Positions 1 to 20,186 of a DNA stretch of 21,191 nt are shown here, one piece after another. The position numbers and the translations under genes were made by a program. The stretch comes from a virus, in the IMG/VR virus record IMGVR_UViG_3300032278_000142, positions 1 to 21,191 of that record; one strand, given 5' to 3'. The notes under the pieces are model-generated. The model was not told the DNA's origin, did not search any database, and saw nothing but the letters and a program-made list of their open reading frames with translations. Each line of letters begins with the position of its first letter. Position 1 is the stretch's first letter.

Positions 1-2177
1 CCGTCCGGTTGTATGTCCAGCCTAAAAGTTCCCAGTTTCCAGTCCTGGGCAGCAGCTGTGTTTTCTATTTTAAGCGCAATGGCTCTTGCTCTTGCGCGTG
101 TGTCAATTTTACCAGTGGAACTGGTGATTGTAAAGGGTCCTAGCGAAGAACTTGCCGCTGTGTCATTAGGATAATCTCTCAGCAATAAAGTAATGCGAGT
201 GTCCCCCGTCTGACTAATAAAATCAGGAAGGAATCTTCGGATCTTCATAATGTATTCGCCGTCTCCTCTTATGTCTGGGGCCCCTAAAAGTTGTCCTTGT
301 GCCGCTCTTTTCTGGGTAATGTCAAAATCTCCTGAAAGAACGTTAGCTGTAACCGCAGTCACTACTCCTCCGGCATTCACTTGATCCGTTCCTGTTTCAT
401 GTTCATAATAAATACTTGTTCCATCCGTGTTACCTACAACATCAAAGGATGCATTATCACTGGTCGTATAATAACAGGCATGGGGTTTAGCAAAGACTTC
501 TGAATCTTCCCAGGCCGTTCTGGGTAGAGAACCGGTATACCATATAGGTTTTTTAAGCATCACGGATTCTAAATAATTATAAGTCACGACTCGATCAATA
601 ACATTAGAACCATCACTACAATAAAACCAATTCACTTCTCCAAAAAGATTATTCAAACCACAATTAATAAGATTTCTTGATACGGTGTTAAGATCATCAA
701 ACACATAGTCTTCTACTAGACATGGCATCGATTGAAGTTGACCTGCGTATTGAAAGAATCCATTTTCAGACATCCAAAAAGCGGTACCATCAACTTCCAT
801 ACAGGCATTCTTACCAATGAGTCCACAGTTCGTTCCGACTTGTTCAAAAGAAAAGGTAAAAGGTTGACCAACAAAACGCATCAAGAAGATGGCTGCATCG
901 GTCCAGATATAAATAGCATCTCGACCTCTAATAGCTCCCATGATTTGAGAACCATTGGCTAATCGTTGAGTTCCTGCCGTATTGGTTGCGGAAGGCGTAT
1001 AGTCGCTGGTACTTTCTTGATCCGACCACCTAATAAACATGTCGTCTTGGGTAGTTGTATCACCAATCGTGGTTTCAGTTCCTAAAAAAATTAAGTGACG
1101 ATCAACCGGAGACACTAACATATGTCTGGAAGCAGTGGGTGCTCCTGAAATAACGGTTGCTCGATTCGCTGTTGGATTCGAAGCAGCTGCATCCCATTCA
1201 TAACATGCTCCATTATAAATAAGAGCCATGAGTTTAGTTCCATAGTTATCCAGAACCCAGAGTCCTGGTTCAATCGTATAGTCGGCTGAGGATGCTTCGC
1301 CCCAGGCAACATAATCTGAAATATTAGTTATCGTGGCTCCTCCAGTATGCTCCGCTCGAGTGGTTCCATTTACCGCACGTGCTCCTCCACTTAAAGTTCC
1401 TGTAGTGGTATCATTAGCTGTAAAAGAAATATCCTCAGTCCCTATTCTAATTTCTCCTGAAGTAGGAAAAGCAGTTGAATCAGTTAGGACAACATTAGTG
1501 GTCGCATCATCAGGAAGTGTGGTTACTAAAGTAGTAGTCGCTGCTCCTGAAGCGGATCCAGAATAAGTTCCTGTTCCAAAACCATAACCACCCACTTCTT
1601 GAGCAGGTCCTACGGTTACATAACACAAAGCGGAAGCCGAACCTGAATTACTTAATTGAGTTCCGGATTCTGCTGATGCCATGGTAATGGTAATCGTGGT
1701 TGCAGTCGGTGCTGACGTCACCATAAATAGAATATCTTCAAAGGAAGCATCAGTATAAGTTGATCCTACGGCTGTGACTCCGCTCACTCCATCAAATTTA
1801 ACAATGTCATCATCCACTAACCCGTGTGGGCTTGGAAAAGTAACGGTGACTGCAGTGTCAGAAGTGGTGCTGGTAAAATCGCAACCTGCTATTGTAGTAC
1901 GTAAAGGATGAATATCATGATATTGTCCTCCTGAGTAGACGTATAAAATTCTGTTAGTTCCTATAGCAGCGTATTTAATACCTGCATTATCGTCCCAATG
2001 GTGAAGGGCTCGAGCAGCTCCGGTTAGGTTATCTTCTCCTAACTGGTCCCAGCCTCCTATTTTTTCAGGGGTACCATATCTAAAACGGACATAGTCTCCC
2101 CCCGTCCATTGTGCTTCGGCGCCGGTAGCTGTAACTTGTTTATTGAATCCTGGTAAAAAGTTTACTTTTTGTAGCAT
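1..2177 (-). CDS. P22 gp10-like tail/DNA-stabilisation protein, 3' end missing
   Basis: This is an open frame from the ATG at 2177 to the left edge: 725 full codons with no stop seen. The N-terminus carries an LPGFNK motif at residues 8-13 and then VRFRYGTPEKIGGW at 30-43, a signature I associate with the P22 gp10 (Phage_stabilise) tail accessory family, which plugs and extends the tail under the portal. The last visible residues, LGTFRLDIQPDG, look like the end of such a protein, so probably few codons are missing. P22 gp10 is about 472 residues; this one is much longer, partly because residues about 213-280 are an inserted module also found in two neck proteins of this window. There is no strong ribosome site, only GGA upstream. 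The gene follows the oxygenase/halogenase cassette after a 52-base gap. The family call is by motif recognition, not by alignment. Confidence 0.75.
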   Translation of the reverse strand, partial: MLQKVNFLPGFNKQVTATGAEAQWTGGDYVRFRYGTPEKIGGWDQLGEDNLTGAARALHHWDDNAGIKYAAIGTNRILYVYSGGQYHDIHPLRTTIAGCDFTSTTSDTAVTVTFPSPHGLVDDDIVKFDGVSGVTAVGSTYTDASFEDILFMVTSAPTATTITITMASAESGTQLSNSGSASALCYVTVGPAQEVGGYGFGTGTYSGSASGAATTTLVTTLPDDATTNVVLTDSTAFPTSGEIRIGTEDISFTANDTTTGTLSGGARAVNGTTRAEHTGGATITNISDYVAWGEASSADYTIEPGLWVLDNYGTKLMALIYNGACYEWDAAASNPTANRATVISGAPTASRHMLVSPVDRHLIFLGTETTIGDTTTQDDMFIRWSDQESTSDYTPSATNTAGTQRLANGSQIMGAIRGRDAIYIWTDAAIFLMRFVGQPFTFSFEQVGTNCGLIGKNACMEVDGTAFWMSENGFFQYAGQLQSMPCLVEDYVFDDLNTVSRNLINCGLNNLFGEVNWFYCSDGSNVIDRVVTYNYLESVMLKKPIWYTGSLPRTAWEDSEVFAKPHACYYTTSDNASFDVVGNTDGTSIYYEHETGTDQVNAGGVVTAVTANVLSGDFDITQKRAAQGQLLGAPDIRGDGEYIMKIRRFLPDFISQTGDTRITLLLRDYPNDTAASSSLGPFTITSSTGKIDTRARARAIALKIENTAAAQDWKLGTFRLDIQPD

Positions 2178-2229: not shown

Positions 2230-2739
2230 TTACATAACCCAAAAAGCGTTGCCAATGATCACGGTTCGACCTTCTTTTTGACTTGGTTTTACTTCATGAG
2301 AATAAAGCGACGGGAAAAAAATACAGTCCCCTGCCTTCAGATGATGGGACTGCCCGTTAACTATAAGGGGTGAAGTACCCGGAGGAGAAGCTACATAGTA
2401 ACTAAAAGAAAAAGCATATGGAAAATGATTATGTTCGATGACGCAAGAGTTCTTATCATAAATGATTCCCCAACAATCTTTAAGGGTAAACGAATAAGAA
2501 GGCTGATCAAATCGGGGTAAAGAAAAATGCTTGCCAACCTCGGTAAATAAACCCTCGAGCCATTTAACTAGTGTATTAAGAGCCGGAATATTTTTATGAT
2601 GGAAATTAAAATTGGTTCTTCTTCCCCCTAAATGTTTTCCTCCTCCTAAACGAGCAGCTAAAGAAGTTTGAATAGCTACTTGTAATTGAGGATTAAGAGT
2701 AGAAGCTAAAGGGTATTTAAAAATAATAGGTTCTATCAC
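2230..2739 (-). CDS. Putative 2OG-Fe(II) oxygenase-like double-stranded beta-helix protein
   Basis: This 169-residue protein starts with GTG at 2739; the GTGA there overlaps the upstream stop by four bases. The C-terminal half looks like a compact double-stranded beta-helix: EHNHFPYAF (H103, H105), a strand region, then GDCIFFPSLYSHEV (H148) and an arginine ten residues later (R158). This order is typical of 2OG-Fe(II) oxygenases of the PF13759-like type. The first metal motif reads HxH instead of HxD, so the metal site is either altered or cupin-like. The N-terminal 90 residues have no motif I recognise. It is the last gene of the cassette, translationally coupled to the previous oxygenase. 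Its substrate is unknown. A metal-binding cupin without 2OG dependence is the main alternative. Confidence 0.65.
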   Translation of the reverse strand: MIEPIIFKYPLASTLNPQLQVAIQTSLAARLGGGKHLGGRRTNFNFHHKNIPALNTLVKWLEGLFTEVGKHFSLPRFDQPSYSFTLKDCWGIIYDKNSCVIEHNHFPYAFSFSYYVASPPGTSPLIVNGQSHHLKAGDCIFFPSLYSHEVKPSQKEGRTVIIGNAFWVM

Positions 2740-3371
2740 CTAAAACCTTTTACTTTCTTGTCTTTAAACCATGCAGGAAGACCCGCGCATACTCTTCCAT
2801 CATATTTTAATTTAAGAGCATTAGGTTGAGTAGAATCCGTATAATGAATAAACCCCTGACAATAAGTATTACCTTCAAAAGGTTCTCTCCAATGTTCTAG
2901 ATCACAGGCTTTATAAAGTAATAAATCCCCTGGGGCGAGTATAACTTTTTTGCCGGGTTGATTAGATTTTTCTGAAAGATAAATAGGCCATTGAGTGTCC
3001 CCTCCAATATGAATGGTACCAGAAATTTCGCATTCATCTCTATCCCTATGTCGTTTAAGAATATCTCCTTTCTTATAAATACGGGCATAAGAATAAGAAG
3101 GATAGAGTTTATATCCCGTTTCTTTTTCTACACGCTCATGCAACCCTTCTAATAAGGTTTCGAAGACACCATCTGCATAATGAGAATAAGTTTTAGGAAT
3201 TTGTCCGTCATCCCATGTACCCCAGTACTCAGTAAAAGGGGAAATATATCTGCTATCAAATAATATTTTGGACACTCTTCTTTTATTTTGAAAGTAATGA
3301 AAAATAAAATCAGTTAATTGTTTAGTAATCGCTTGTCTTACTACTTTATATTTATTTTTTTTAAACGACAT
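2736..3371 (-). CDS. 2OG-Fe(II) oxygenase-like protein, phage type
   Basis: This 211-residue protein has the core SYARIYKKGDILKRHRDRDE, giving H108 and D110 as the HxD pair, then WPIYL, LAPGDLLLY and the distal histidine H160 in CDLEHWREPF. This layout (R.Y..GD.L..H.DR...E, later GD...Y and EHWRE) is one I recognise from 2OG-Fe(II) oxygenase-like proteins common in cyanophages and other marine phages. The complete HxD...H triad predicts an active hydroxylase-type iron enzyme using 2-oxoglutarate and O2. Its ATG lies inside the end of the upstream gene (11-base overlap), and its stop overlaps the GTG of the next gene. Its product is unknown; small-molecule or protein hydroxylation are both possible. 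Confidence 0.8.
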   Translation of the reverse strand: MSFKKNKYKVVRQAITKQLTDFIFHYFQNKRRVSKILFDSRYISPFTEYWGTWDDGQIPKTYSHYADGVFETLLEGLHERVEKETGYKLYPSYSYARIYKKGDILKRHRDRDECEISGTIHIGGDTQWPIYLSEKSNQPGKKVILAPGDLLLYKACDLEHWREPFEGNTYCQGFIHYTDSTQPNALKLKYDGRVCAGLPAWFKDKKVKGFR

Positions 3372-3993
3372 TTTTAACCATTTCTTTTGGTACAGCCTGA
3401 ATATTCCAATGAATAAATCTAAAGGGTTCTATACCATGATCTACTGCATATTCATGTTCTACATAACCTGGAAAAATAATCAATGTTCCAGGCTTCGGTT
3501 TAAAATGTACCAGTTCACTTGCATATGTCACTGAATCTAATTGTTTCTGGTGTAATTTTGTCATTATCGCACCGGCTCGAGGATCATGAAAGATAGGAAA
3601 AGATGTTTTATCTGAACATTTTAAAAAATAAAAACCTGAAACATGTTGATTCCAATGATGATGGGCTGAGTGATGACCTCCTCCTCTTTTAGAAAATTCC
3701 TGCACCCACATTTCAGAAAACATCGTAACGTATTTTGTCATATCAAATCCCTGCCAATCTAAAAAGTCTCTAGATTTTTGCCCAACATAATCTCTGAATG
3801 TTGCAAAGCGCTTATCCTGCGTTATAGGATTCGAGTGATGAGCCATCCCAAAATCCCTGGTTTTTTTTATACTTTTTTCATCTCTCTTACGCGCAGCTTT
3901 AATATATTCATTACTTGCTTTGTTTAATAATTTTACAAATTCTGGCTTATATTCAGTCCACAGAGGAGTTGAAAAATACTCGAGTTTATGCAT
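3361..3993 (-). CDS. Putative 2OG-Fe(II) oxygenase, PF13759-like
   Basis: This 210-residue protein contains AHHHWNQHVSGFYFL (residues 110-124), FPIFHDPRA (132-140), and then GTLIIFPGYVEHEY with H180, followed by R192 near the end. The order histidine-rich motif, SG.Y.L, F.DPR, FP...H, R matches the putative 2OG-Fe(II) oxygenase family PF13759/TIGR02466. In this group the first metal motif is not a plain HxD; H111 or H113 with H180 are the likely ligands, and which residues bind metal cannot be settled by eye. The gene starts eight bases inside the halogenase end and its own end overlaps the next gene by 11 bases, so it belongs to the same translated unit as the halogenase. Confidence 0.8.
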   Translation of the reverse strand: MHKLEYFSTPLWTEYKPEFVKLLNKASNEYIKAARKRDEKSIKKTRDFGMAHHSNPITQDKRFATFRDYVGQKSRDFLDWQGFDMTKYVTMFSEMWVQEFSKRGGGHHSAHHHWNQHVSGFYFLKCSDKTSFPIFHDPRAGAIMTKLHQKQLDSVTYASELVHFKPKPGTLIIFPGYVEHEYAVDHGIEPFRFIHWNIQAVPKEMVKNVV

Positions 3994-5614
3994 GGAACTT
4001 TTTCCGTAAATATTCGTAAGGAGTTGGAAAATTTTTTACTTCTTTATTCCATCTTTTTTTTCTTTCGTCTAACTTATCTTTACGCGACTCCACTGTCTTT
4101 AAACTTGAAAGAGCCAATTTATACTTAAGAGTATGAGAATCAAGAGGATTCCAATTGAGGCCTACCGCCATACAATTGGTAAGATTATTGGCCTGGCCAT
4201 AGTTAAAGTCAGTATGTCTTTTTGAAAAAGGTTCTTTTAAAAATCCAGAGAGCTGGCCTTTGGTATAAGAAAGTAAAGAAGACCAGTCTTTCTTTTGAAG
4301 AGCTTTCCAATAGTCAGTATCATCTCGATGAGAAAGTGCATAAGGTAATGAAACCCCCATGACAAAACGATCAAAATCGCTATGACATTTAGCTGTGAAC
4401 TCATCTCGATCCCATTGACTGATGTGTCCTCGTTCTAAAATTCGAGTTAAGTTAAATAAAAATTCATGCATACTTTGTAAGCCATTAGATTGGAGAGGTT
4501 CAATAAACGCTGCAGCTAATCCAATAGCGCATACATTTTTCACCCAGAGTTTTGATTGAATACCACACTTCATTGGAATGAGATTATATTCTAGGTCTTC
4601 AACTTTTTGATATCCTTTTTTAACAAGGGTCTGTTTAAATTCTTTTAAAGCATCTTCTGAAGAAATAAATTTATCCGAAAATACATAGCCTGCTCCCATT
4701 CGGGACCATAAAGGAATTTCCCACACCCAACCATTTTCAATAGCAGTGCAGTTGGTATAGTTTACAATTTGTTTATTGGGATTGGTGTAAGGAATTCGAG
4801 TGGCCCATGCTTTATTGTTCGGAAGAATATGATCATAAGGAATAAAAGGTACATGCATTTTACTGTTTATTAAAAGCGCTCTAAAGCCTGTGCAATCAAT
4901 AAATAAATCTGCATAAACTTGTTGTCCTCCTTCTAACAATAAATATTCAATTCCGCCTTCCCCATCCTCTCGCGTGCGCACGACTTGTACTTTGGATACA
5001 AAATGAGTAAAACGATCAGGATAACGGGCTTTACAATACTTATCTCTTAGCCAGTTTCCAAATTTAGCAGCATCAAATTGATAAGAGTAATGAGACAAAA
5101 GTTGCACCTCATGAAGATAAGGGTCTTCTTCTAACCTTGCTCGTCCATGAGCACTGCTAAAAGTATCAGTAAACATAGATTTGTTTTGATTGATTAATGC
5201 CATGCCTGGATACATACAGTCAGCATAGTCACGGGTAGGTGTCTCAGGGTATTTTAATTTTTTAAGATGCCAGTCTTTAAGGGCCAGTTCACTTCCTTCT
5301 AGATAAGGTTGACCGAAAGGATAATGAAAGCGTCCTGAATCTTTGCGATACCAATTTTCAAATGCAATACTATGTTTATAAACAGCATCGGTATGAGGCA
5401 TGAATTCTTCATCTTTAATATTTACCATTCTTAGCCAGTGTAGAATGCCACTAAATCCCCCTTGGCCCCCAGCCACTGTGCTTTCTCCAACTCCTATAGT
5501 AGGAAGATCGGCTGGTTCTATTAAAGTAATTTCTTTTTCTGGAAACTCACTTAATAAAGTAGCGGCCGTCATATAGCCTGCTGTTCCCCCTCCTACGATT
5601 ACAATCTTTTTCAT
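3986..5614 (-). CDS. Flavin-dependent halogenase, tryptophan-halogenase family
   Basis: This 542-residue protein is near the usual length for the family (PF04820). It has an N-terminal FAD-binding Rossmann motif GGGTAG (8-13), GVGEST (41-46), the halogenase signature WVWEIP (296-301), and VYKHSIAFENW, where K80 lines up with the catalytic lysine of PrnA and RebH that carries the chloramine or hypohalous species. Family enzymes use FADH2, O2 and halide to halogenate electron-rich aromatic groups; a cyanophage member (VirX1) is active and favours iodide. At the place where PrnA has EPLES, this protein has EPLQS (Q375), so the second catalytic glutamate is a glutamine. No flavin reductase gene is nearby, so a host reductase would have to supply FADH2. 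The start overlaps the upstream stop as ATGA. Substrate and halide are unknown. Confidence 0.92.
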   Translation of the reverse strand: MKKIVIVGGGTAGYMTAATLLSEFPEKEITLIEPADLPTIGVGESTVAGGQGGFSGILHWLRMVNIKDEEFMPHTDAVYKHSIAFENWYRKDSGRFHYPFGQPYLEGSELALKDWHLKKLKYPETPTRDYADCMYPGMALINQNKSMFTDTFSSAHGRARLEEDPYLHEVQLLSHYSYQFDAAKFGNWLRDKYCKARYPDRFTHFVSKVQVVRTREDGEGGIEYLLLEGGQQVYADLFIDCTGFRALLINSKMHVPFIPYDHILPNNKAWATRIPYTNPNKQIVNYTNCTAIENGWVWEIPLWSRMGAGYVFSDKFISSEDALKEFKQTLVKKGYQKVEDLEYNLIPMKCGIQSKLWVKNVCAIGLAAAFIEPLQSNGLQSMHEFLFNLTRILERGHISQWDRDEFTAKCHSDFDRFVMGVSLPYALSHRDDTDYWKALQKKDWSSLLSYTKGQLSGFLKEPFSKRHTDFNYGQANNLTNCMAVGLNWNPLDSHTLKYKLALSSLKTVESRKDKLDERKKRWNKEVKNFPTPYEYLRKKFHA

Positions 5615-6126
5615 ATCGTTACTATATTTAAAACTATTCTAGTTGGAGTATCTGTCTGTACTACTCCAGAATGTTTGTTTAAATTGTCAAAAATTAATAA
5701 TTCATTTTCATTGGATGGATATTTTTTGTCTTTAATTATTGTTCCACCATTACAAGTTATAAAATTTAATATAGAAAGAGTAACATTTTCTCTTGGTTTA
5801 TTTTTTTCATCATATACATCCGTATGACGGACATGTTTTATTTTTTTATTTTGATTCGTATAAAGATTAAGTTTCATTCTCAATAATTCTTTGATTGGAA
5901 AATCTAGAAAATAAAGAATAGGTTCAAACTCTTTGAAGAGGTGTGAAATAGGAGCAGGAGGGATCGTATTATATAAGACGTGAACAAACATAAAATGCTT
6001 ATCTTCTTTTACACCTGGATAGGAAACAGTTTGGTTAGTAAAATACCAAGGAAAAGCACTACCTGTAACTAAATGTTTTAATTTATTAAAATATCTAGCC
6101 GGTAAAAGATTCTTTTTAATTTGCAT
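5611..6126 (-). CDS. Putative 2OG-Fe(II) oxygenase
   Basis: In this 171-residue protein the C-terminal part contains VRHTDVYDE (H101, D103), then TLSILNFIT, GGTIIKD, ELLIFDNLNKHSG (H152) and R163 in TPTRIVLNI. This is the HxD...H...R pattern of an iron and 2-oxoglutarate binding beta-helix. The N-terminal 80 residues are not recognisable. The end overlaps the halogenase start by four bases (ATGA), which argues for a linked role. The best upstream ribosome site, AAAGGAG near 6160, is about 37 bases before the ATG, far beyond normal spacing. In-frame alternatives nearer to it would need an ATA start, so the true start is uncertain. Confidence 0.7.
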   Translation of the reverse strand: MQIKKNLLPARYFNKLKHLVTGSAFPWYFTNQTVSYPGVKEDKHFMFVHVLYNTIPPAPISHLFKEFEPILYFLDFPIKELLRMKLNLYTNQNKKIKHVRHTDVYDEKNKPRENVTLSILNFITCNGGTIIKDKKYPSNENELLIFDNLNKHSGVVQTDTPTRIVLNIVTI

Positions 6127-6186
6127 ATCAGACGTATCAAATTGGTACTGTATATCTTACTCCTTTTGTTATTTCTGTACAGGTTT

Positions 6187-6211
6187 TACCATACTATTAT
6201 TAATAATGGTA
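6187..6211 (-). other. Imperfect hairpin in the cassette's one sizeable gap
   Basis: The minus-strand sequence can fold into a stem of six outer pairs (TACCAT with ATGGTA), a two-base bulge, four inner A-T pairs and a three-base loop. It lies in the 99-base gap between two oxygenase genes, the only large gap within the cassette. It is followed by AAAACC, not by a T run, so it is not a standard terminator. It could slow transcription or guide RNA processing. The stem is AT-rich and may be weak. Confidence 0.35.
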
Positions 6212-6225
6212 GCGTATTTCTTTAA

Positions 6226-6774
6226 TCATTTAAATCTAGGTCCCAATAAAAGCATAGCTATAGATTTTCGTGTTCCTTTAGTCACAGGCGTAATACGATG
6301 TAAAATAAAAGAAGGGAAAATAACTAGGTTGCCCGGCACATTAAGCTCTGGAACTTTAACCGTTGTATTTACTTGAAGTTCTAAGTCTCCTCCTTCATAC
6401 GAAGAATCGGAAAGATTGAGAAGAGCTGTTAGTTTAATATCGCTGGCTCCCTCTTCAGTACCGTCTTGATGAAAGCCATATTCACTTCCCGAAGAATAAA
6501 CATTATAGATAAGATGTTCTTCTTCATTTAAAGAAAATAATTGAAACCCAAAAGCATAATTGTTTATAAAAAGTGTGGATTCATAAAATTTATTTAAATA
6601 AGGTTTGGCTTTTTTCCATGGAACTCCTTTCACTTTAGAAGTCTTAATGACTCCATCAGCCCCTTGTTGAGCTCGCGTAGATATGAGATCCCTTTTTAAT
6701 AGAGTATTAATTTTTTTTATTTCCTGAGGATTGTAAAGTGATTCCCACCAATATAAAGGATTACCAAGAGCCAT
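6226..6774 (-). CDS. 2OG-Fe(II) oxygenase, PKHD/prolyl-hydroxylase-like
   Basis: This 182-residue protein has all the expected elements: FHQDGTEEG with H102 and D104, LNLSDSSYEGGDLEL at 119-133, then IFPSFILHRITPVTKGTR with distal H159 and 2OG-binding R169. The order and spacing match prolyl 4-hydroxylase-like and PKHD-type 2OG-Fe(II) oxygenases, which hydroxylate proteins or small molecules. Its ATG directly follows the stop of the upstream gene (TAAATG). It shares LSD...Y.GGDLE and HR.TPVTKG.R with that neighbour, so the two are probably tandem paralogues that diverged strongly at their N-termini. Its target is unknown. Confidence 0.85.
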   Translation of the reverse strand: MALGNPLYWWESLYNPQEIKKINTLLKRDLISTRAQQGADGVIKTSKVKGVPWKKAKPYLNKFYESTLFINNYAFGFQLFSLNEEEHLIYNVYSSGSEYGFHQDGTEEGASDIKLTALLNLSDSSYEGGDLELQVNTTVKVPELNVPGNLVIFPSFILHRITPVTKGTRKSIAMLLLGPRFK

Positions 6775-7428
6775 TTATTTCCACGGGCTTCCTAAATGCC
6801 AGGCAGGGACACTATACCGGATACCTTTCGTAACAGGAGTGACTCGATGCCAAACAAAAGAAGGAAAGACAACCAGACTTCCTTTTTCTTGAAGTTCTTT
6901 TACTTTTAAAACCTGGTTCTTAACTTCATATTTTTTTTCAGGATCATACTGTCGGGGATTCATTTCTAAGTCCCCACCCGTATAATCTTTTTTATCAGAA
7001 AGCATTAAAATGGTACTTAGTTTTCTGATTTTCCCATGGGTAGGTTTTCCAGGAGCATGATAAGGCTTGTCCCAAGAATCACAATGCCATCCATAATATT
7101 GACCTTTATGATATTTAGTAAACTGACAAGGCTCAGAGTAATCCCATTCAAAATTCCATCCCGTCTGTTGATTAGCGATCCGGACACAAGGTTGAAGTAA
7201 ATTCCAAACCCATATTTCTTCTAGCCAGACGACATAAGAATCTCTTTTCTTTTTTAATGCTTTGAGTTGAGTTTTAGCTTCTTTAGACATTCCCCTTAAA
7301 CTTTCTTCTTTAATCTCCCCTGTGGTAGCAATTCTATGTTGACGCGACAATCCTAATTTTAATATTTCATCACAAATACGCTCTGGAATAATTTTATTAA
7401 AGTACCAATAATAATATTTTAGATTCAT
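6775..7428 (-). CDS. 2OG-Fe(II) oxygenase, PKHD/prolyl-hydroxylase-like
   Basis: This 217-residue protein contains CQFTKYHKGQYYGWHCDSWD (H115, D117), LSTILMLSD and YTGGDLEM, then LVVFPSFVWHRVTPVTKGIR with H194 and R204. This is a complete HxD...H...R site of a 2OG-Fe(II) oxygenase. The Y.KGQ.YGWH.D pattern recalls phage and bacterial hydroxylases that act on proteins or small peptides. Compared with its downstream paralogue it has a longer N-terminus with a lysine-rich helix at residues about 48-64 and an insert between the HxD motif and LSTIL. It starts with ATGA overlapping the upstream methyltransferase-like gene, behind a GGAG site about nine bases upstream. Confidence 0.87.
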   Translation of the reverse strand: MNLKYYYWYFNKIIPERICDEILKLGLSRQHRIATTGEIKEESLRGMSKEAKTQLKALKKKRDSYVVWLEEIWVWNLLQPCVRIANQQTGWNFEWDYSEPCQFTKYHKGQYYGWHCDSWDKPYHAPGKPTHGKIRKLSTILMLSDKKDYTGGDLEMNPRQYDPEKKYEVKNQVLKVKELQEKGSLVVFPSFVWHRVTPVTKGIRYSVPAWHLGSPWK

Positions 7429-8003
7429 CCTGTTGCTCCGTGTTCTTTTATAAGACTGTAACGACGTCTTCCTTTATTCAAGACTCTAAAACCATAAACA
7501 GAGCAAAGATTAACTATTATATCCATCTTATATCTTTTGTAATCATTAAAACAAAAGGTTGTTCCTAGATGTGCGCGATGACAAAAGAACATAACTTCTC
7601 TTAAAACATCGGTCGTTCGTTGTGGTCCATCAAAATGAACGCAGGTATATCGATTTAATAGGTGTGGTTTTTCATCATAAATAATAAAGCCGTTGCGATA
7701 TTTATCCATATACTCCGTATCGGCCATTTCTAACAAATGAAATTCTAAATAATCAATTAAATCTTTTTTTGTATTCCATTTAACTTTGTTACTTACACCG
7801 GCCTGTATGTTTCCGTAAGGATCAATGCCTAGGTGATGAAAATTTTGAAATTTTTTGCGACCTTCTTCTAACATGATTTGAGACCCATTTCCTTCATGAA
7901 CCCCTATCTCACAGGTAAGAACATATCCATTAGTTTCTTCTTTATAAGAACTCTGAACTGCTTCCGTTAAGAGTTCATATTCTACTTCTTTAATAATACG
8001 CAT
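7425..8003 (-). CDS. Class I SAM-dependent methyltransferase-like protein
   Basis: I place the start at 8003, where AAAGGA sits six bases before an ATG, giving 192 residues. An earlier in-frame ATG at 8084 (219 residues) has no ribosome site. CEIGVHEGNGSQ (31-42) resembles motif I of class I methyltransferases, LGIDPYG (58-64) fits the acidic second strand, and VHFDGPQRTTDVLREV (122-137) followed by FNDYKRY (152-158) resembles the DG.H...V..D and DDY region of macrocin-O-methyltransferase-like enzymes (TylF or Methyltransf_24 type). The predicted role is O-methylation of a small molecule or sugar. It is the first gene of the cassette and is coupled to the next oxygenase by ATGA. Another SAM-fold or nucleotide-binding enzyme is possible. 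Confidence 0.6.
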   Translation of the reverse strand: MRIIKEVEYELLTEAVQSSYKEETNGYVLTCEIGVHEGNGSQIMLEEGRKKFQNFHHLGIDPYGNIQAGVSNKVKWNTKKDLIDYLEFHLLEMADTEYMDKYRNGFIIYDEKPHLLNRYTCVHFDGPQRTTDVLREVMFFCHRAHLGTTFCFNDYKRYKMDIIVNLCSVYGFRVLNKGRRRYSLIKEHGATG

Positions 8004-8143: not shown

Positions 8144-8749
8144 TTAAACAGAATCCCAAGCGAAAGTAGCAGGATTCCAATTAACCGTTCCTTGAGGATT
8201 GTTGTCTCTTTCATCTATACTATCAAGAGAAGTTTCAAACTCTTGTGGGGGATCCGTTTTTACAGCTGTCCATTTTTGGCCAGCTTCATTCCAACGAATT
8301 CTATAAGCTCTTTCAGTACTTAAACCATCATCAGAAATATACGTTGTAACCGTAGGATATGCGATAGGTCCTGTCCAAACATTTTGAGCACTTAAAGACC
8401 AAGAAGCAAAAGGTTGGGGATCTATAAAAATATCTTTTGAAGGACTATATATTTTCCCTATACCCGCATAATTTGCACGAAAAGCTAATGATTGATCTTC
8501 AGAAATCGTCCCATCTTGTTGGTAATGAGTACCTCTTCTTGTATTATATGAAGTTTGTTTCCATGTTCCTGTTTTAAATAATTTACGGCAATAGTCTTCG
8601 CCTTGAACATGTCCAGTATGATCTCCTAATTTACCAACGGCAAGAGGAGTATCATTAGATATTGCTACAACATTTGTAACTACCCAATAATCCTCGTTAG
8701 TATTATCAAAGGGATCGGTTTGTTTTTGAATTTTTGCAAAATAAGCCAT
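8144..8749 (-). CDS. Conserved phage structural-region protein, function unknown
   Basis: This 201-residue protein begins MAYFAKIQ, with WVVTNVVAISND at 22-33. The pattern is one I recognise from uncharacterised proteins of cyanophages and other marine phages. Several YR, W and N residues recur (KTGTWKQTSYNTRRG; YRIRWNEAGQKW), and the end is N-W-N-P-A-T-F-A-W-D. I see no signal peptide or membrane segment. It begins one base after the stop of the glycine-rich adhesin, so it is probably co-translated with it and may be a fibre partner, chaperone or virion decoration. I cannot assign a function. Confidence 0.75.
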   Translation of the reverse strand: MAYFAKIQKQTDPFDNTNEDYWVVTNVVAISNDTPLAVGKLGDHTGHVQGEDYCRKLFKTGTWKQTSYNTRRGTHYQQDGTISEDQSLAFRANYAGIGKIYSPSKDIFIDPQPFASWSLSAQNVWTGPIAYPTVTTYISDDGLSTERAYRIRWNEAGQKWTAVKTDPPQEFETSLDSIDERDNNPQGTVNWNPATFAWDSV

Positions 8750-8750
8750 C

Positions 8751-9731
8751 TTATAAAGTTATGGTTCCTGTATCTGTAAAGTAAGCGATTGTATCAGAAC
8801 CACATGTTGCTATAGCGCCGCCTCCACCAACTCCGAATGTCGCGGGTTTACTTGCTGTTGGAAATCTCATAACGAAGAATCCTTTTCCTCCGTTACCACC
8901 ATTCCAAGTGCCTGGGGTATATGCATTGCCTCCACCGCCGCCGCCAAGATTGGCTGTGCCTGGGTTTCCGCTAACTGCACCGGTTCCACCACCACCTGCT
9001 CCTCCAGTACCTGAAGGTCCTCCAAACCAGCCGCCGCCACCGCCGCCGCCGCCGTAAGTAGTTCCTCCTGGAAATCCAGGATAAATTGCTACCGGTCTTC
9101 CAGCGCCTCCGGGGCCACCACCAGAGTTTCCTCCTTGGTGAGGATGAGGTGAACCATTGTTTCCGATCGCTGTGGCACCGCCACCGCCGCCTGATCCATA
9201 GTCAAGGGGGCCACCATTAGAGGTTCCGCCAGCAAAGCCTTGAGGGCCTCCTTGTGCAGTTGGAATTGCAGGAACATTTCCTGTTCCTCCAACATTTCCT
9301 AAGTGATTTGTTCCGCCACCTGAACCGCCTGGAGTACCACCTCCACAGGCGTGACAGCTGCACCCACCACCTTTTCCGCCTCCTAAAGCTGATAAAGTTT
9401 CGGGAGTACCGGGACCAGTGTTAACTGTTGTTACGGTTGTGTTGCCACCATTAGTTCCGCTGTGCACAGATGGAGGAGAACATTTACATGCTCCTGATCC
9501 ACCTGCACCGATTGTTACGGTAATAGGAAGTTCTTCGTCTGTGAATATTACTGATGCAGCACAAGGATTAGAATACGTTCTACGCAATCCACCTCCGCCG
9601 CCACCACCGCCAGCGTTCGGGTTTCCGCCACCGCCGCCGCCACCGGATACTATTAAATAATCTGCAGTTAATTCTTTTACGGCTCCTCTACCACCTGATC
9701 CGAAGCCTAAAACTTTATAACCAAAAGACAT
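8751..9731 (-). CDS. Glycine-rich tail adhesin-like protein
   Basis: This 326-residue protein is dominated by glycine runs (for example residues 30-36, 41-48, 227-234 and 263-268) between short polar or aromatic spacers. It starts after a clear AGGAGG site. N-terminal residues 1-30 (YKVLGFGSGG...ADYLIVSGG) resemble the lead-in of glycine-rich phage tail proteins (Gly_rich families), whose runs can form a polyglycine II lattice presenting variable loops for receptor binding, as in the gp38 adhesins of T-even-like phages. Seven cysteines (57, 82, 84, 124, 126, 129, 310), including CKC and CSCHAC, are unusual in a virion adhesin and could bind metal or form cross-links. The gene is much richer in G+C than its surroundings. 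A receptor-binding role is inferred from composition and position at the end of the tail genes. Confidence 0.8.
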   Translation of the reverse strand: MSFGYKVLGFGSGGRGAVKELTADYLIVSGGGGGGGNPNAGGGGGGGGLRRTYSNPCAASVIFTDEELPITVTIGAGGSGACKCSPPSVHSGTNGGNTTVTTVNTGPGTPETLSALGGGKGGGCSCHACGGGTPGGSGGGTNHLGNVGGTGNVPAIPTAQGGPQGFAGGTSNGGPLDYGSGGGGGATAIGNNGSPHPHQGGNSGGGPGGAGRPVAIYPGFPGGTTYGGGGGGGGWFGGPSGTGGAGGGGTGAVSGNPGTANLGGGGGGNAYTPGTWNGGNGGKGFFVMRFPTASKPATFGVGGGGAIATCGSDTIAYFTDTGTITL

Positions 9732-9752
9732 ATTTCTTTCCTCCTATAAATT

Positions 9753-11018
9753 TTAGCCGTCGTTAGCAGCGTCTGTTGTATAGAATAATTTAATTCCTAG
9801 TAATCTTACATCACCGGTGAACGTGTCGCCACCTGCTGTTGCATTTCTAACGACTTGAAAATACGTATAATCATCGTCCGCTGGAGTTCCTGCAATTGTT
9901 ACTGCAGCACTCACTGGACTAACTAATACATCTTCAACAGCACCGCCGCCTGCGTCTGTAACATCGATAGCTGTTCCAAAAGCTATGTCTGATGTATCAT
10001 CATTCGCGACACCGACACCTTGAAGACCAATAAGGGCGTTTCCTGTATCTGTGTTGCTCGGACTCCAAAAAGCTTGGAAGGTCACTGTACCTAAATTCCA
10101 TGATTTAGGCATCGCGATGGAAAACTGTGCATATTCAGCTGTACTTGCATCAAAATCTAAAACTTTTAGTTCAGGTCGAGTTGCTGTCGTTTCAACGGCA
10201 GCGGCTTCAGCTCCATTTGTTGTTGGACCAAACATTGCTTGTGCTGGAATAAAAATAGTTTCTGTGCCTGCATTTTTAACTACAGAACCACCGGCTTGTA
10301 CTTCTCCGGATCCATTGGGAGCAATATTGATGTTTCCATCAACGCCATCAGCAATTGTAATAGTTCCTGAATTTGTGCCATTGTTTGTGTTTAAAATTAA
10401 ATCTCCAGTTCCTTGTGTAGTGACGGTTGCGTTAGCATTATTGTCACCCACTTGAACTGTATCTGCTCCAAGGTTAACATCACCTGTTCCATTTGGAATA
10501 ATATCAATATCTCTATCTGAAGTTGAAACTATGTCGTAAGTTACAACATCTAAATTTCCACCTAATTGTGGTGTTGTGTCATCAGCCACACTCGCTATAA
10601 ATCCAGTATCAACGATATCTGGATTAGTACCATCGTTCGCTGTTGCATAAACTATTTTTGTAGCTCCAGCAGGAAAAGTTACACTGTCTCCTGAACCAGA
10701 AACATATTTAAAAACTACTGAATCATCACATGAGTTTTTAATTATATAAAAAGTTTGAACGTCGATAGGAATAGTACAATTTCTACTTGCTGCAAGTGAT
10801 CCTGTAAATTCTATAACTCTATGTGCAAGAGTTGCACCTGTTGATCCGTCAGAAACCGATAGATCTGTATCAGCACCATCAGTTATAGCTTGAGTGGTAA
10901 AACCACCTGAAATCTGTTCGATAATATCCCAGTTTGTATTTGTTAAAGTTCCCCATGTACCAGCTTTTTCGCCAGTGGTCATGAGTTGAATTCCGAGTAC
11001 TGTATAATTTGATGCCAT
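9753..11018 (-). CDS. Tail fibre-like protein with beta-repeat region
   Basis: In this 421-residue protein the N-terminus (MASNYTVLGIQLMTTGEKAG, then TWG, N.NWDIIEQ.SGG) is a common start of marine phage fibre proteins and probably attaches to the virion. Residues about 157-240 contain short beta-strand repeats of the type NGTGDVNLG, QGTGDLILN and NGSGEV, consistent with a trimeric beta-helix shaft. Residues about 250-421 form a compact beta-rich end (IFIPAQAMFGP, AFWSPSN, VRLLGIKLFYTTD) that may be the tip or a binding domain. AGGAG lies just upstream of the ATG and overlaps the stop of the previous gene. The role as a fibre is inferred from repeats and location; its ligand is unknown. Confidence 0.78.
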   Translation of the reverse strand: MASNYTVLGIQLMTTGEKAGTWGTLTNTNWDIIEQISGGFTTQAITDGADTDLSVSDGSTGATLAHRVIEFTGSLAASRNCTIPIDVQTFYIIKNSCDDSVVFKYVSGSGDSVTFPAGATKIVYATANDGTNPDIVDTGFIASVADDTTPQLGGNLDVVTYDIVSTSDRDIDIIPNGTGDVNLGADTVQVGDNNANATVTTQGTGDLILNTNNGTNSGTITIADGVDGNINIAPNGSGEVQAGGSVVKNAGTETIFIPAQAMFGPTTNGAEAAAVETTATRPELKVLDFDASTAEYAQFSIAMPKSWNLGTVTFQAFWSPSNTDTGNALIGLQGVGVANDDTSDIAFGTAIDVTDAGGGAVEDVLVSPVSAAVTIAGTPADDDYTYFQVVRNATAGGDTFTGDVRLLGIKLFYTTDAANDG

Positions 11019-11027
11019 AATTTTCTC

Positions 11028-12659
11028 CTATGCCGTATGTTCTATATCTGTATAAGAAGTATTTCCAGTTATGTCAACATCTTTATAATATAATGGGGAT
11101 GTACCCGCGGAACCTAAACTTACTGTAGCTGATTGACCTGTTGCTCCAACAGTCATTTGTGTTGGAGAAGCAGCTCCTACAGAAGTTATTGCTGATACTC
11201 CAGTTAAAGGAACACCTATTTCAAGTATAATAGATCCTAGTGAAGAGGTTGCGCCTACTCCAGTTAAATCAACTAATTCAACATTAGCAACTGTTACTGA
11301 TCCAACAGAAGTGGTTGCACTTACTCCACTTGGAAAATCAATCCATAAAAAACTCAAGGATCCAAGACTTGATGTTGCAGAAACTCCAGTTAAAGGAACA
11401 CCTATTTCAAGTCCAATAGAGCCAACACTTGCTGTTGCTGAAACTCCAGTTAAAAGATCATCAACACCATATGATAATCCTGGTGTACCTAGTGAAGTAG
11501 TTGCATAAACTCCAGTTAATCCAACTGACAATTCTGTTGGAGATACTGCTCCAACACTAGCTGTCGTTGAAAGACCTGTAAGACTTATTGTAAACGCAGA
11601 TTCACCCCAGTTTTCAGATCCCCATGTATCTCTTCCCCATCCTTGTTCAGGAAAAGCAGCAATAGTACCTAAAGATGCTGTTAATGAAAGTCCGCTTAAA
11701 TTAATAACAGGCTCCTCAGTATCACCCCATGGTTCACTGCCCCAACTATCTCTACCCCAACCAGCGTTAGTACCAACATATGTTGGAGCTCCAACAGAAG
11801 ATGTTAAAGCTGATGGCGCAGTAATAGGAATCTCTATAGCAGTTATAACTGAACCGAGAGAAGATGTTAAAGCTGAGGGTGCTGTAAGTATTTGTAAAGT
11901 TTGTACTTCGGCTGCACCAACGCCAGATGTTAAACCTAATCCAGATAATGCAACAGAATAGGTTACTCCCCATCCAGCATTACCATATTCGAGTCTACCC
12001 CACCCATCGGTGGCTTGAGCATAAGGAAATGATCCAACAGAAGCTGTTGCTGATAGACCTGTCGGAGTAATAGTGAGACCTGATTCGCCCCAATTCTCTA
12101 TACCCCAGGCATCACTGCCCCATCCTACTACATTGAAAGCTTCAGGAGTTCCAACCGATGAAGTTGCAGAAACACCTGTTAAGGCAACACTGCTATCATT
12201 CTGTACATTCCAATTTCCCTGACTCCATGATAAAGCTCCCCATGTATCTTGGGTCATATCCATAATGCCGCCCATTCCAATACCATGGACCCAGCATGCA
12301 AAATAAAAATCTGTTTCTGAAGTAGGAGCTATTTCTATATAACGAGTAGTAGCTGCATTAAAAGTTGTTGTATTGGTGTAAGCAGCTTGATTACTGGCTC
12401 CGTCTAAATAATAAGTAACTCCGGAAGAAATAATTCCGGCTTGCATTGTAGCTAAAATTGAACTGTTGGAAGTAGAAAAAATTAATGGATGACTATCATT
12501 ACTTGAACCTGATTGTTCTAAACGAACTGTTCCTGAAGCAACCCATGGGAAAGTAAAACTTGCGGGTTGAGAACCATCAAATGTATAAATTAAACCTGTA
12601 GAACCAGTAACGTACTGCGTTCCAGTTGTAACCGCTACTGTGACTGTAAGATTAGCCAT
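11028..12659 (-). CDS. Repeat-rich tail protein with N-terminal cupredoxin-like domain
   Basis: This 543-residue protein has two parts. Residues about 30-135 resemble a cupredoxin fold seen in some phage virion proteins: a histidine in NDSHPLIFS (H57) and, near the end, FACWVHGIGMGGIM, giving C122, H125 and M129, the usual type 1 copper ligand set, although C-x2-H-x3-M is one residue tighter than in plastocyanin. Residues 160-519 contain 14 copies of a unit like LTGVSATSSVGS, interrupted by four tryptophan-rich blocks such as GWGRDTWGSENWGES, with a weaker one at 139-150. The C-terminal 20 residues are unique. It lies between a small virion protein and a fibre gene, so a tail or fibre role is likely. 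Translation may depend on the upstream gene, because a hairpin covers its ribosome site. Confidence 0.78.
   Translation of the reverse strand: MANLTVTVAVTTGTQYVTGSTGLIYTFDGSQPASFTFPWVASGTVRLEQSGSSNDSHPLIFSTSNSSILATMQAGIISSGVTYYLDGASNQAAYTNTTTFNAATTRYIEIAPTSETDFYFACWVHGIGMGGIMDMTQDTWGALSWSQGNWNVQNDSSVALTGVSATSSVGTPEAFNVVGWGSDAWGIENWGESGLTITPTGLSATASVGSFPYAQATDGWGRLEYGNAGWGVTYSVALSGLGLTSGVGAAEVQTLQILTAPSALTSSLGSVITAIEIPITAPSALTSSVGAPTYVGTNAGWGRDSWGSEPWGDTEEPVINLSGLSLTASLGTIAAFPEQGWGRDTWGSENWGESAFTISLTGLSTTASVGAVSPTELSVGLTGVYATTSLGTPGLSYGVDDLLTGVSATASVGSIGLEIGVPLTGVSATSSLGSLSFLWIDFPSGVSATTSVGSVTVANVELVDLTGVGATSSLGSIILEIGVPLTGVSAITSVGAASPTQMTVGATGQSATVSLGSAGTSPLYYKDVDITGNTSYTDIEHTA
11197..11226 (-). 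repeat. 30-base exact direct repeat, copy 1
   Basis: This copy is identical to 11383-11412. Both encode the start of a repeat unit with its preceding linker (LEIGVPLTGV). The distance between the copies, 186 bases, is a multiple of three, so recombination between them would delete 62 residues in frame. Confidence 0.85.
11383..11412 (-). repeat. 30-base exact direct repeat, copy 2
   Basis: This is the second copy of the 11197-11226 sequence. The flanks differ within a few bases on both sides, so identity is limited to this block. Confidence 0.85.
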
Positions 12660-13881: not shown

Positions 13882-14691
13882 TTATGATCTATCGTTTACG
13901 GGTCCGCCGAAAACGAAAAAACCTCCTCCTGTTTCTACACTACTAGCCGCATTGGCTAAAGTAAAACTAAAACTATCACTCACAGGCAATGTTGATGGTT
14001 CTCCTGCATAAGGAATAGTGCTGTCAATTTTAGTTATTTCATATGAGCCATAAATTTTTGCCCCGGAAGTATGAGCTACTGCTGTAGTCGCTTCTGGTGT
14101 TTTTCCATAAGAAGGAGCTGCGGTTCCTCTTGTACAGCCGGTTAAAGTATTAGAAGTCCGTCCAGTATATTGAATAGTTTCACTTGTAATTTTTCCAAAT
14201 TCAACAGTATTGGCATCTGTATTAGTGGATTCAATAACAATGTATCCTGAGGTAGGAAATTCCGAACCATCGGTTAATACAATAGAAGTATCAGTAGCAG
14301 TAATAGTTGTAGCTAAAGTCGTACTTAATTCAAAAGTGGAAATGGCTACTCCTCCTACCGGGTTTTTAACTTGATAAAATCTAACTGCATCTCCAGTAGA
14401 TCGTTGATGTCTATTTTCTGTTACAATAACCGTAGTTCCTACTTCTGTAGTAAAAGGATTATTATTTAAAGCAGCAGGTGTGGGTAAAGCTACTCTTGAT
14501 GGTCTTGCTCTCATTAAAGCTTGAGGGTCTGCGCTTGTGGGTTTAGGTTCCAATTGAGGTTGTTTAGGTTCAAATTCTGAAAAATGAACCCATGCGCCAT
14601 TCCATTCCCTTACCATTTCTAAATAAGGAAAAGCTAAACCAGATCTATCTGATATAGCAAGTGCATGTTTACCTGAAGCAAATGTAGTCAT
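13882..14691 (-). CDS. Virion protein with shared beta module
   Basis: In this 269-residue protein the N-terminal part (GKHALAISDRSGLAFPYLEM, then V.EWNGAWVHFSEFE, and later EPKQPQLEPK) is a type I have seen beside neck genes in marine phages. Residues about 123-214 form a module (STTLATTITATDTSIVLTD, FPTSGYIVIE, ETIQYTGRTSNTLTGCTRGT, AVAHTSGAKI) that also occurs in the adaptor just upstream and in the gp10-like tail protein. The C-terminus (SFSFTLANAASSVETGGGFF) is glycine- and phenylalanine-rich. It is packed between two adaptor-like genes with two-base gaps. A neck or tail-completion role is inferred; the family is not known to me. Confidence 0.68.
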   Translation of the reverse strand: MTTFASGKHALAISDRSGLAFPYLEMVREWNGAWVHFSEFEPKQPQLEPKPTSADPQALMRARPSRVALPTPAALNNNPFTTEVGTTVIVTENRHQRSTGDAVRFYQVKNPVGGVAISTFELSTTLATTITATDTSIVLTDGSEFPTSGYIVIESTNTDANTVEFGKITSETIQYTGRTSNTLTGCTRGTAAPSYGKTPEATTAVAHTSGAKIYGSYEITKIDSTIPYAGEPSTLPVSDSFSFTLANAASSVETGGGFFVFGGPVNDRS

Positions 14692-14693
14692 AA

Positions 14694-15656
14694 TTAAGCG
14701 TTAGGATAGTAGACCTTAGGAGCAATATAAGTACTTGTAATATCTGCGTCCTCTTTTACGGCTCTAGCCAATTCATCCTCATAATAAAGTTTTAATTCTT
14801 GTGATCTTTGGGGTGCATTCTTTTGTGATAAATAAAATGCTAATCCTGCAGTCATGCAAGGGGAAAAACGATAAGGCACATTTACTGCATTAGTATAAGC
14901 ACCACCGTCTTGAATCCTTCGTGAATAATATAAATTTAATTTATTTCCATCCTGTGCTGCACCTGGAGTTAAATATATAGTTATATTTGTTCGATCAATA
15001 AATCTTTGAATAAAGAAAGAAGTAGGTGTTCCTTTTGCACTCTTATTAGAATATCCTTGATACTGAGATCGACTTACTTCAGTCATTGGGGAATCAATAC
15101 TTGTAGAAGTAATTCTATAATTAACTTCTAATATATTATCCATTCCTGTAGCATGTTGAGTAACCGCATCAGAACTTGAATGAGTGGCAGCTGTCGTGCC
15201 ATTAGATCCACGAATCGCTCCCGTAAGATTTGCTGCGCCTGTGGCTGCAGATTTTCCTGTGTATCTAATCGTTTCAGAGTTAACCGTAATTGTTCCTCCT
15301 CCTTGATCAGCACCAGGCATATCTGTAACTTCTGTTAAAGGAATATCTGTAACAGATGCATTAATTCCTGCAGATAAAGTCGTTGTTAATCCTTGAGATG
15401 CACCATCGGCCGGGGATCGATAAGTAGTATAGACATTTGTTCCATCTACTAAAGTAAAGCCTTGATTCGCCACTTCCCAATAATGAAGTCCTCTATTACT
15501 CCATTCAGAAAATAATAGATTTAAAGATCGTTTAGCTGTTTTTAATTGATAGCCTGAAACGTTTTGTAGACCAATTCTTTCATAAGCTTCTTCTATGATT
15601 TCATCAATCGGAAGAGTCTTATCGAAAGTGTATGATTGAGAAGTAGTGTTAGCCAC
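14694..15656 (-). CDS. Head-tail adaptor/head-completion protein
   Basis: This 320-residue protein starts with GTG, supported by AGGAGG seven bases before it. The N-terminal region IDEIIEEAYERIGLQNVSGYQ, continuing through TAKRSLNLLFSEWSNRGLHYW (residues 17-60), resembles the helical start of P22 gp4 and related head-completion or tail-tubular adaptors (L..A...G......A...LN.ML..W...G...W). The C-terminal half has a typical FRYS-like ending: PYRFSPCMTAGLAFYLSQK, then a helix ELKLYYEDELARAVKEDAD. Residues about 90-168 are an inserted beta module shared with two other virion proteins here. The core without the insert is near the usual adaptor size. It probably forms the ring under the portal. 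Confidence 0.72.
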   Translation of the reverse strand: MANTTSQSYTFDKTLPIDEIIEEAYERIGLQNVSGYQLKTAKRSLNLLFSEWSNRGLHYWEVANQGFTLVDGTNVYTTYRSPADGASQGLTTTLSAGINASVTDIPLTEVTDMPGADQGGGTITVNSETIRYTGKSAATGAANLTGAIRGSNGTTAATHSSSDAVTQHATGMDNILEVNYRITSTSIDSPMTEVSRSQYQGYSNKSAKGTPTSFFIQRFIDRTNITIYLTPGAAQDGNKLNLYYSRRIQDGGAYTNAVNVPYRFSPCMTAGLAFYLSQKNAPQRSQELKLYYEDELARAVKEDADITSTYIAPKVYYPNA

Positions 15657-19154: not shown

Positions 19155-20186
19155 TTATTCTCCCTCCGTGAGTTTTAGTTGTCTTGCATACTCTTCTAGT
19201 GGCACACGCAATTTTTTAGCAATTGCTACTTGTGATGGTGTGAGTCTCACACTTTTGCGATTAATCCTTGGACTACGCGTTGCAGAAGCAACGTTTTGTG
19301 TAGGTTTATTAATCGTCTTTTCTACAGTATTACCAAATTTCTGAGGGAATTCAAGTCTTATTCTTTTATCAATTTCTTCATAATAAGAATTTGACTTTGG
19401 ATCGAACCCTTCTTCTTCAGTAAGCTTTCTATGTAGATCAAAAGCTGTGTAAGTCATGGCATTATCTTTGCCAAACCACTCATTTTTTTCCGCCCAGTCC
19501 TCTGCTTTTGGATCTGGTGGCGGCGTTTGTTGAGTAGGATACTGGGCTCCGGGTCCTTGTTTTCTTGTAGTCTCTCTAGCAGTCTCTTCCATTTTTTGTC
19601 TGCTTTTGATTTCTGCAAGTTTGCCCTGCTCATATCCTAATTGTGAGATGGCTGTTAACGCTTCCACTTCAGCTTTTTTATCGTCTGCTTCTCTAGAAGC
19701 ACCTAATTTAGCTTGAGCCGCTGCTAAAGATGATGAGATTCTATTCTCCATTTCTTTGGCATAATCTCTATCTAAATTAGTGGCTGTCTGAGTTAACTCA
19801 TCTCGTTGTCTCATTACACGTTTAGCATAAGTAACAGCTTCTTCTTTTTGTCTCTCTGCTTCACGCATTTTTCTGGTAAGTTTAGCAATACGTTTTTTAA
19901 CGCCTTCACTATACTCTTCCATTTCTTTCTTTTGTTCTGTGGGTTGTTCTTTTACTTCTTCCTCTGTAGCTTGTTCTTTGTCGTCCTTGCTATCTCGAAC
20001 ATCCACTGGCTCATCCAATTTCTCAGGTGTGTCAGCGGGCTTATCACTGTCTTGAGTAGTTTTTTCATCTTTTACTTCTCCTCCTTCAGCTTTTTTATCT
20101 AAGTCAATGTCAGTTGCTTTTTCATCAGCATCCCCGACATCAATCAGTTCTTCTTTTCTTACTTCTTCTTTTACTTCTTCTGGCAT
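19155..20186 (-). CDS. Probable capsid scaffold protein
   Basis: In this 343-residue protein the first 90 residues are highly charged and probably disordered (MPEEVKEEVRKEELIDVGDA and on). Residues about 90-210 form a long helical, coiled-coil-like part (KKRIAKLTRKMREAERQKEE; ALTAISQLGYEQGKLAEIKS). A proline-rich hinge TPPPDPKAEDWAEKNEWFGK leads to a compact, basic end (INRKSVRLTPSQVAIAKKL). An acidic start, helical centre and basic capsid-binding end just before the capsid genes fit phage scaffold proteins. The segment DPKAEDWA..N.WFG.D..MT..AF..H..L is common in scaffold-type proteins of marine podoviruses. GGGAGG lies before the ATG. Confidence 0.75.
   Translation of the reverse strand: MPEEVKEEVRKEELIDVGDADEKATDIDLDKKAEGGEVKDEKTTQDSDKPADTPEKLDEPVDVRDSKDDKEQATEEEVKEQPTEQKKEMEEYSEGVKKRIAKLTRKMREAERQKEEAVTYAKRVMRQRDELTQTATNLDRDYAKEMENRISSSLAAAQAKLGASREADDKKAEVEALTAISQLGYEQGKLAEIKSRQKMEETARETTRKQGPGAQYPTQQTPPPDPKAEDWAEKNEWFGKDNAMTYTAFDLHRKLTEEEGFDPKSNSYYEEIDKRIRLEFPQKFGNTVEKTINKPTQNVASATRSPRINRKSVRLTPSQVAIAKKLRVPLEEYARQLKLTEGE

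Follow-up and report, generated by a model that had tools for sequence, protein, structure and literature searches.

What could eight tightly packed enzyme-like genes be doing beside the tail fibre genes of a marine phage? The question is raised by a virus record of 21,191 bases (IMGVR_UViG_3300032278_000142; the window, meaning the whole stretch of DNA that was analysed), which comes from a marine phage with kinship to SAR11 viruses. The eight open reading frames (ORFs) lie on its minus strand, between positions 2230 and 8003. An initial annotation had read them as six 2-oxoglutarate (2OG)-Fe(II) oxygenase-like genes, one flavin-dependent halogenase gene and one methyltransferase-like gene, forming either a pathway or a set of tailoring steps on one substrate. 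We propose, with a probability of about one in two, that the enzymes carry out the post-translational tailoring of the phage tail fibres or adhesins. The cassette would then represent one variant of a tailoring locus that can be exchanged and is linked to the tail fibres. The strongest clue was the location of the genes between fibre-side genes and a tail/virion protein, which was absent from the initial annotation.

The virion proteins of the window resemble those of HTVC023P-type pelagiphages most (the product of gene 19155-20186 is 49% identical to its counterpart in HTVC027P and 46% to that in 023Pt_psg01), and its structural genes follow the same order as in these two phages. We have gathered 80 loci through the flanking virion gene T1 and 19 through the halogenase, and mapped the gene families with iterated profiles. 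The oxygenase hits numbered 278 in the 292 kb upstream of T1 vs. none in the 138 kb downstream. Each of the 25 regions that were complete from the conserved fibre-side gene I to T1 held one to ten oxygenases (median six), with at least one halogenase in 8 of the 25. The same site was occupied in the isolates 023Pt_psg01 and HTVC023P (gp65-67 and gp71) and, on the opposite strand, in HTVC027P (gp72-74); in HTVC033P, the array genes come after the fibre genes. The initial annotation had named random scattering of the genes among relatives as the outcome that would speak against it. This was checked, and the genes stay together at one site.

The membership of the arrays varied between phages. Sulfotransferase genes were found in two sibling arrays (L052 and L093), and O-methyltransferase or other methyltransferase genes in two more (L002 and L053). 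This variation, together with the fact that no scaffold-making enzyme was seen in the window cassette, spoke against the fixed pathway of the initial annotation; its other suggestion, tailoring of one substrate, can be kept by inference if that substrate is the virion's own adhesin. Sub-blocks inverted relative to the flanking genes were present in L045, L076 and HTVC027P (L021:14093-15754), which suggests that the array block may invert or insert in one piece. Such inversions, the high turnover of content and the few unrelated or unassigned ORFs within arrays would also suit a mere insertion hotspot, in which unrelated accessory genes accumulate and share no common substrate. We consider this very unlikely, since oxygenases predominated in 25 of 25 complete arrays and the same families recur beside the fibre genes of unrelated phages.

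We have compared array content, expressed as shared protein clusters, with the similarity of the flanking genes across 18 de-duplicated loci (Mantel). In this test, which was exploratory, with small n and loci that are not independent, array content correlated with the sequence similarity of gene I (r 0.42, p 0.0008). There was no correlation with T1 similarity (r -0.09, p 0.66), whose range was narrow because it had been the criterion for selecting the loci. The T1-proximal half of the array gave r values of 0.435 with I and 0.013 with T1. Array content also correlated with the glycine-rich fibre proteins (GlyR; partial r about 0.46, p 0.0014-0.0016, n 16). According to our proposal, the exchange of adhesins between phages would bring an exchange of the enzyme set with it.

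The strongest rival predicts the same co-variation, because an enzyme set that alters the host surface must match the receptor of the fibre. Here the enzymes would modify lipopolysaccharide, a glycan or an outer-membrane receptor, keeping progeny from sticking to debris and shutting out other phages. The sulfo- and methyltransferases of sibling arrays are glycan-type chemistries, and the halogenase of S-SSM7 adjoins sugar-metabolism genes. However, the halogenase family works on aromatic rings, which surface glycans do not have, and no glycosyltransferase was recognised within the arrays of this phage group. We regard receptor modification as unlikely.

Taken as individual cases, unrelated T4-like phages also had homologue arrays next to genes for the neck or the tail fibres. 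They comprised the Pelagibacter phages HTVC008M and Mosig and the cyanophages Sf-CH11, syn9/Syn10, S-RSM4, S-RIM44, S-CAM8, ACG-2014b, S-RIM32 and S-CREM1. The array of S-CREM1 adjoins a gene for a "collagen-like protein," and that of syn9, a close relative of Syn10, comes after two "tail fiber assembly" genes. In Syn10, two halogenase genes lie side by side, and the second of them encodes VirX1. We advance only tentatively the broader idea that at least two unrelated marine phage groups diversify their own tail adhesins via exchangeable cassettes, by hydroxylation, sulfation, methylation and possibly halogenation, and that host recognition thereby evolves through the joint exchange of adhesin sequence and post-translational chemistry. 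If this were true, the natural substrate of VirX1 would be a tail protein. Few unexplained "auxiliary metabolic genes" are as common in marine phages as those for 2OG oxygenases and halogenases, and the usual reading is that they serve host metabolism; the fixed fibre-side place and the co-variation offer adhesin modification as a specific, testable alternative.

The cassette itself was re-found as eight ORFs with the packing that the initial annotation had described (Table 1). The junctions A/B, B/C, C/halogenase and halogenase/E overlap by 4, 11, 8 and 4 bases, E and F are separated by a 99-base gap, F and G abut, and G and the methyltransferase-like gene (MT) overlap by 4 bases. The ratio of nonsynonymous to synonymous substitution rates (dN/dS) relative to locus L001 was 0.13-0.24 across the six genes compared (MT, G, F, halogenase, C and B). 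The independent 11-kb assembly L121 contains the same eight genes in identical order. The low dN/dS and the shared gene set in L121 supported that the cassette genes are real and under selection. L121 (PACM01000007.1, 1-11048) has been binned as a Dehalococcoidia metagenome-assembled genome (MAG; NAT172), and its 97.5% nucleotide identity to the window over 11 kb shows that the contig belongs to a phage and was mis-binned. The fibre-side proteins of L121 diverge more from those of the window (T2 86%, GlyR 94% and I 92% identity) than do the cassette proteins (97-100%).

Table 1. Genes of the cassette and of its two flanks in the window.
Feature	Coordinates	Strand	Assignment and sequence features
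T1	3..2177	-	Virion structural protein, HTVC027P gp75 homologue; phrog_3287 2e-101
A	2230..2739	-	169 aa, PF13759/TIGR02466-type 2OG-oxygenase-like; HxH at residues 103-105, distal His 148
B	2736..3371	-	phrog_2954 family (5.3e-48), predicted 2OG oxygenase, P4H/PHD2-like fold; H108, D110, H160
C	3361..3993	-	2OG-FeII_Oxy_5 oxygenase, HxH...H (H111, H113, H180); PF13759 8.1e-14
Halogenase	3986..5614	-	Flavin-dependent family, 542 aa; PF04820 E 1.7e-89
E	5611..6126	-	phrog_274 family, 2OG-oxygenase-like; H101, D103, H152, R163 (23 relatives aligned)
F	6226..6774	-	PKHD-type 2OG oxygenase; HQD...H...R complete; PF13640 2.5e-11
G	6775..7428	-	PKHD-type 2OG oxygenase; HCD...H...R complete; PF13640 1.4e-15
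MT	7425..8003	-	Methyltransferase-like (tentative), EIGVHEGNG motif
I	8144..8749	-	phrog_7759, conserved gene, fibre-side border of the array
GlyR	8751..9731	-	Glycine-rich (113/326 residues) fibre/adhesin-like protein; PF21722 2.5e-09
T2	9753..11018	-	Homologue of HTVC027P gp69, annotated tail protein
Fibre-like protein	11028..12659	-	Trp-Gly repeats (12 WG, 17 Trp)

The presence of six 2OG-like proteins and one halogenase was borne out by family matches, by the matches of relatives and by the fold of B. C, F and G scored above the Pfam threshold for 2OG families, and C has homologues of known structure in the PDB (3BVC and 2RG4). A was barely over the cut-off for PF13759 (27.5 bits vs. 27), matched phrog_81 (1.9e-15) and was aligned with the C family. 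Both A and C carry HxH...H in place of HxD...H, which is invariant in the family alignment. The four complete HxD...H triads counted in the initial annotation are those of B, E, F (H102/D104/H159) and G (H115/D117/H194). An Arg lies past the distal His in E, F and G (residues 163, 169 and 204, respectively), and no equivalent Arg was assigned in B. E has no Pfam match of its own, but 15 of its 23 relatives matched PF13640 and the HxD...H...R pattern is conserved. By motif and family match, E, F and G probably belong to the 2OG-Fe(II) oxygenase superfamily; G is among the commonest array members in the relatives.

B had no good Pfam match of its own, and a PDB profile search gave no credible match. 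The AlphaFold2 model of B (mean predicted local distance difference test, pLDDT, of 92) is predicted to have a double-stranded beta-helix fold. It had 742 Foldseek matches at E <= 0.001, the 50 listed being all of the 2OG-oxygenase type, and VIA Z values of about 16 to 2OG oxygenases. Among the matches listed by Foldseek and VIA, Pseudomonas putida P4H and PHD2 were among the closest folds. Both P4H and PHD2 hydroxylate proteins.

The B family carries the label "ferrochelatase" in GenBank, in PHROGs (phrog_2954) and in two papers (PMC9599517 and PMC11561400). Ferrochelatase families were not among the Pfam matches of 26 members, and the model was nearest to 2OG oxygenases. The model matches and the invariance of H108, D110 and H160 in 25 sequences thus argue that B is a 2OG-type oxygenase and not a ferrochelatase. 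For E, the phrog_274 label is DNA endonuclease V, and no Pfam match to endonuclease V or pyrimidine-dimer glycosylase was obtained in 23 members. Both labels look wrong here, and both families look like 2OG-type oxygenases. The phrog_2954 label has served as evidence for iron/heme metabolism and for the seasonal adaptation of pelagiphages (PMC9599517 and PMC11561400).

The halogenase scored 301 bits against PF04820 (cut-off 21) over residues 3-445, with the flavin adenine dinucleotide motif GGGTAG at residue 8 and GWVWEIP at residue 295. In flavin-dependent halogenases, a Lys79/Glu346 pair (PrnA numbering) is catalytic. The Lys is present as Lys80 and was invariant in a 12-sequence alignment, and the Glu of the EPLES motif is replaced by Gln375 in the window protein (EPLQS). 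The same Gln was found in the halogenases of L001 (92% identical) and L121 (99%), and a His in those of L002 and L018; all remaining phage copies that were examined had Glu, as did 125 of the 126 motif matches in bacterial loci. The gene is not decaying, since it is under purifying selection (dN/dS 0.14). We take the protein as a clear PF04820 member by descent and do not assume halogenating activity. A recent bacterial donor was rejected, as the best genome match (99%) is the same phage, mis-binned in the Dehalococcoidia MAG, and the next-best match, with 41% identity, is a solitary gene in a deltaproteobacterial genome. The idea that the Trp-Gly fibre-like protein is the specific target of the halogenase was not supported, because phages with and without a halogenase have fibres of this kind, and the Trp content does not differ.

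A halogenase accompanied by oxygenases looks like a group of natural-product tailoring genes, and the set might make or decorate a small molecule in infection, such as a halogenated or hydroxylated metabolite or an amino acid. This was proposed for the cluster of the jumbo cyanophage S-SSM6a (Iyer et al. 2021, PMC7824862), and the title of Gkotsi et al. 2019, as cited in PMC10452541, describes the iodination of diverse small molecules by VirX1 in vitro. Among the eight genes of the window cassette, however, no non-ribosomal peptide synthetase, polyketide synthase, ligase or precursor peptide was seen. In addition, membership differed strongly among close relatives, in poor agreement with a fixed product, and the locus lies within the virion-structure region. 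These points make a small-molecule product improbable.

The oxygenases could also hydroxylate host proteins (EF-Tu or ribosomal proteins) or drain 2-oxoglutarate, reprogramming host metabolism. The fold of B is near that of P. putida P4H, whose structure was solved with EF-Tu, and the S-SCSM1 authors prefer effects on 2OG and nitrogen metabolism (PMC9602691). Such a role would leave the tail-region site, the co-variation with the fibres and the halogenase, sulfotransferase and methyltransferase partners unexplained, and we find it highly improbable.

In the tailoring of tail fibres or adhesins that we favour, the enzymes would most likely be produced late, alongside the tail proteins, and would act inside the host cell, before release, on the new fibre/adhesin proteins encoded at 8144-12659 and on T1. 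Side-chain hydroxylation would fall to the 2OG oxygenases, and aromatic side chains (Trp/Tyr) would be the target of the halogenase family member; in other phages, sulfotransferases or methyltransferases would attach further groups. The altered surface chemistry of the receptor-binding parts may then serve adhesion, stability or escape from host resistance. We infer late expression, activity, the protein substrate and the biological effect. P4H-like and PKHD-like hydroxylation fits protein substrates. Halogenases of this type need an aromatic ring, which Tyr or Trp provide. Virion proteomics of the cyanophage S-SCSM1 detected 45 proteins, 13 of them of unknown function, and named no 2OG oxygenase among those assigned, which fits enzymes that act in the cell and are not packaged. 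The main text of the HTVC027P paper names gp73 and does not state the timing of its expression.

Several points weigh against this proposal. With Gln in place of the catalytic Glu, the window halogenase may halogenate poorly or not at all. The Trp content of the WG fibres did not differ between halogenase-positive and halogenase-negative phages (p 0.92, 3 vs. 8). SnoN, which is among the best structural matches of B, has a small-molecule substrate. Fibre genes do not adjoin the B homologue in Syn30 or S-SCSM2R, nor the halogenase in S-B64. Finally, T1 was compared over the narrow range mentioned above, and exchange of the fibre genes and the array as one block could yield the same co-variation pattern without a functional link.

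The clustering of 2OG genes has already been published: they are co-located with "ferrochelatases" in HTVC023P-type phages (Wittmers et al. 2022, PMC9599517), and 2OG/"ferrochelatase" genes are enriched in seasonal viruses (PMC11561400). The system of PMC9599517 shares with the window the phage group, the B family (HTVC023P gp67) and several co-located 2OG genes. That paper reads B as a ferrochelatase of heme/iron metabolism and does not contain the terms halogenase and tail fibre, whereas in our account the structure predicted for B is that of a 2OG oxygenase, in a locus that includes halogenases and is linked to the fibre genes. The S-SSM6a/S-SSM7 cluster (PMC7824862), which in S-SSM7 lies near the neck gene gp13, also combines a halogenase, several 2OG/cupin-type oxygenases and a methyltransferase. 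It has carbamoyltransferases and sugar genes in addition, while the window has neither and represents a smaller, different phage type. The nearest solved structure to the window halogenase is VirX1 of Syn10 (6QGM, E 1.7e-80), which likewise belongs to a fibre-linked array, with oxygenases and a second halogenase beside it. Identity between the window halogenase and its matches in the Syn10/syn9 records is only about 35%, and VirX1 has EPLES where the window protein has EPLQS.

Giant viruses encode collagen-modifying enzymes, and virus prolyl hydroxylases exist. These 2OG oxygenases possibly act on the virus's own fibrous proteins, as proposed here, but they belong to eukaryotic viruses and are single enzymes with no halogenase, and we liken them by description only. 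Among the open-licence papers searched, we found none on fibre modification by phage oxygenases, and none that links the arrays to tail fibres, reports HTVC023P-type halogenases or corrects phrog_2954. What is new here is the fibre link, the co-variation and the evidence against the phrog_2954 and phrog_274 labels. Cultured isolates with such arrays are HTVC023P, HTVC027P and syn9.

With regard to the methyltransferase-like gene, the ORF described in the initial annotation is real, but its identity is weak. Its match to PF13578 (E 0.0027) was under the curated cut-off, its model reached a pLDDT of 42 with only two sequences to align, and a sequence match in the PDB was not found. The gene was seen in three assemblies only (the window, L001 and L121), with one relative among viral contigs. 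An in-frame upstream ATG would lengthen it to 8084; the start at 8003 is that of the initial annotation.

T1 closes the array on the side opposite the fibre genes, and its ORF is open at the window end. It seems to share a short domain (TEDISFT/ETIRYTG...GTTAATHSSS-like; phrog_7578 or E1_FCCH-like) with the virion genes at 13882-14691 and 14694-15656, perhaps a repeated fold in tail proteins. On the fibre side, the repeated W-G units of the fibre-like protein are of the GWGRDTWGSENWGES type, and Trp-Gly-repeat proteins lie upstream of T2 in several relatives, whether a halogenase is present or not. Small Cys-rich proteins (CxxCxxCC-like) are encoded within two of the relatives' arrays (L044:2460-2933, which has no Pfam match, and L071:1091-1570). 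At 20202-20675, the window has a gene for a GroES-like co-chaperone adjoining a scaffold-like gene, comparable to HTVC027P gp55.

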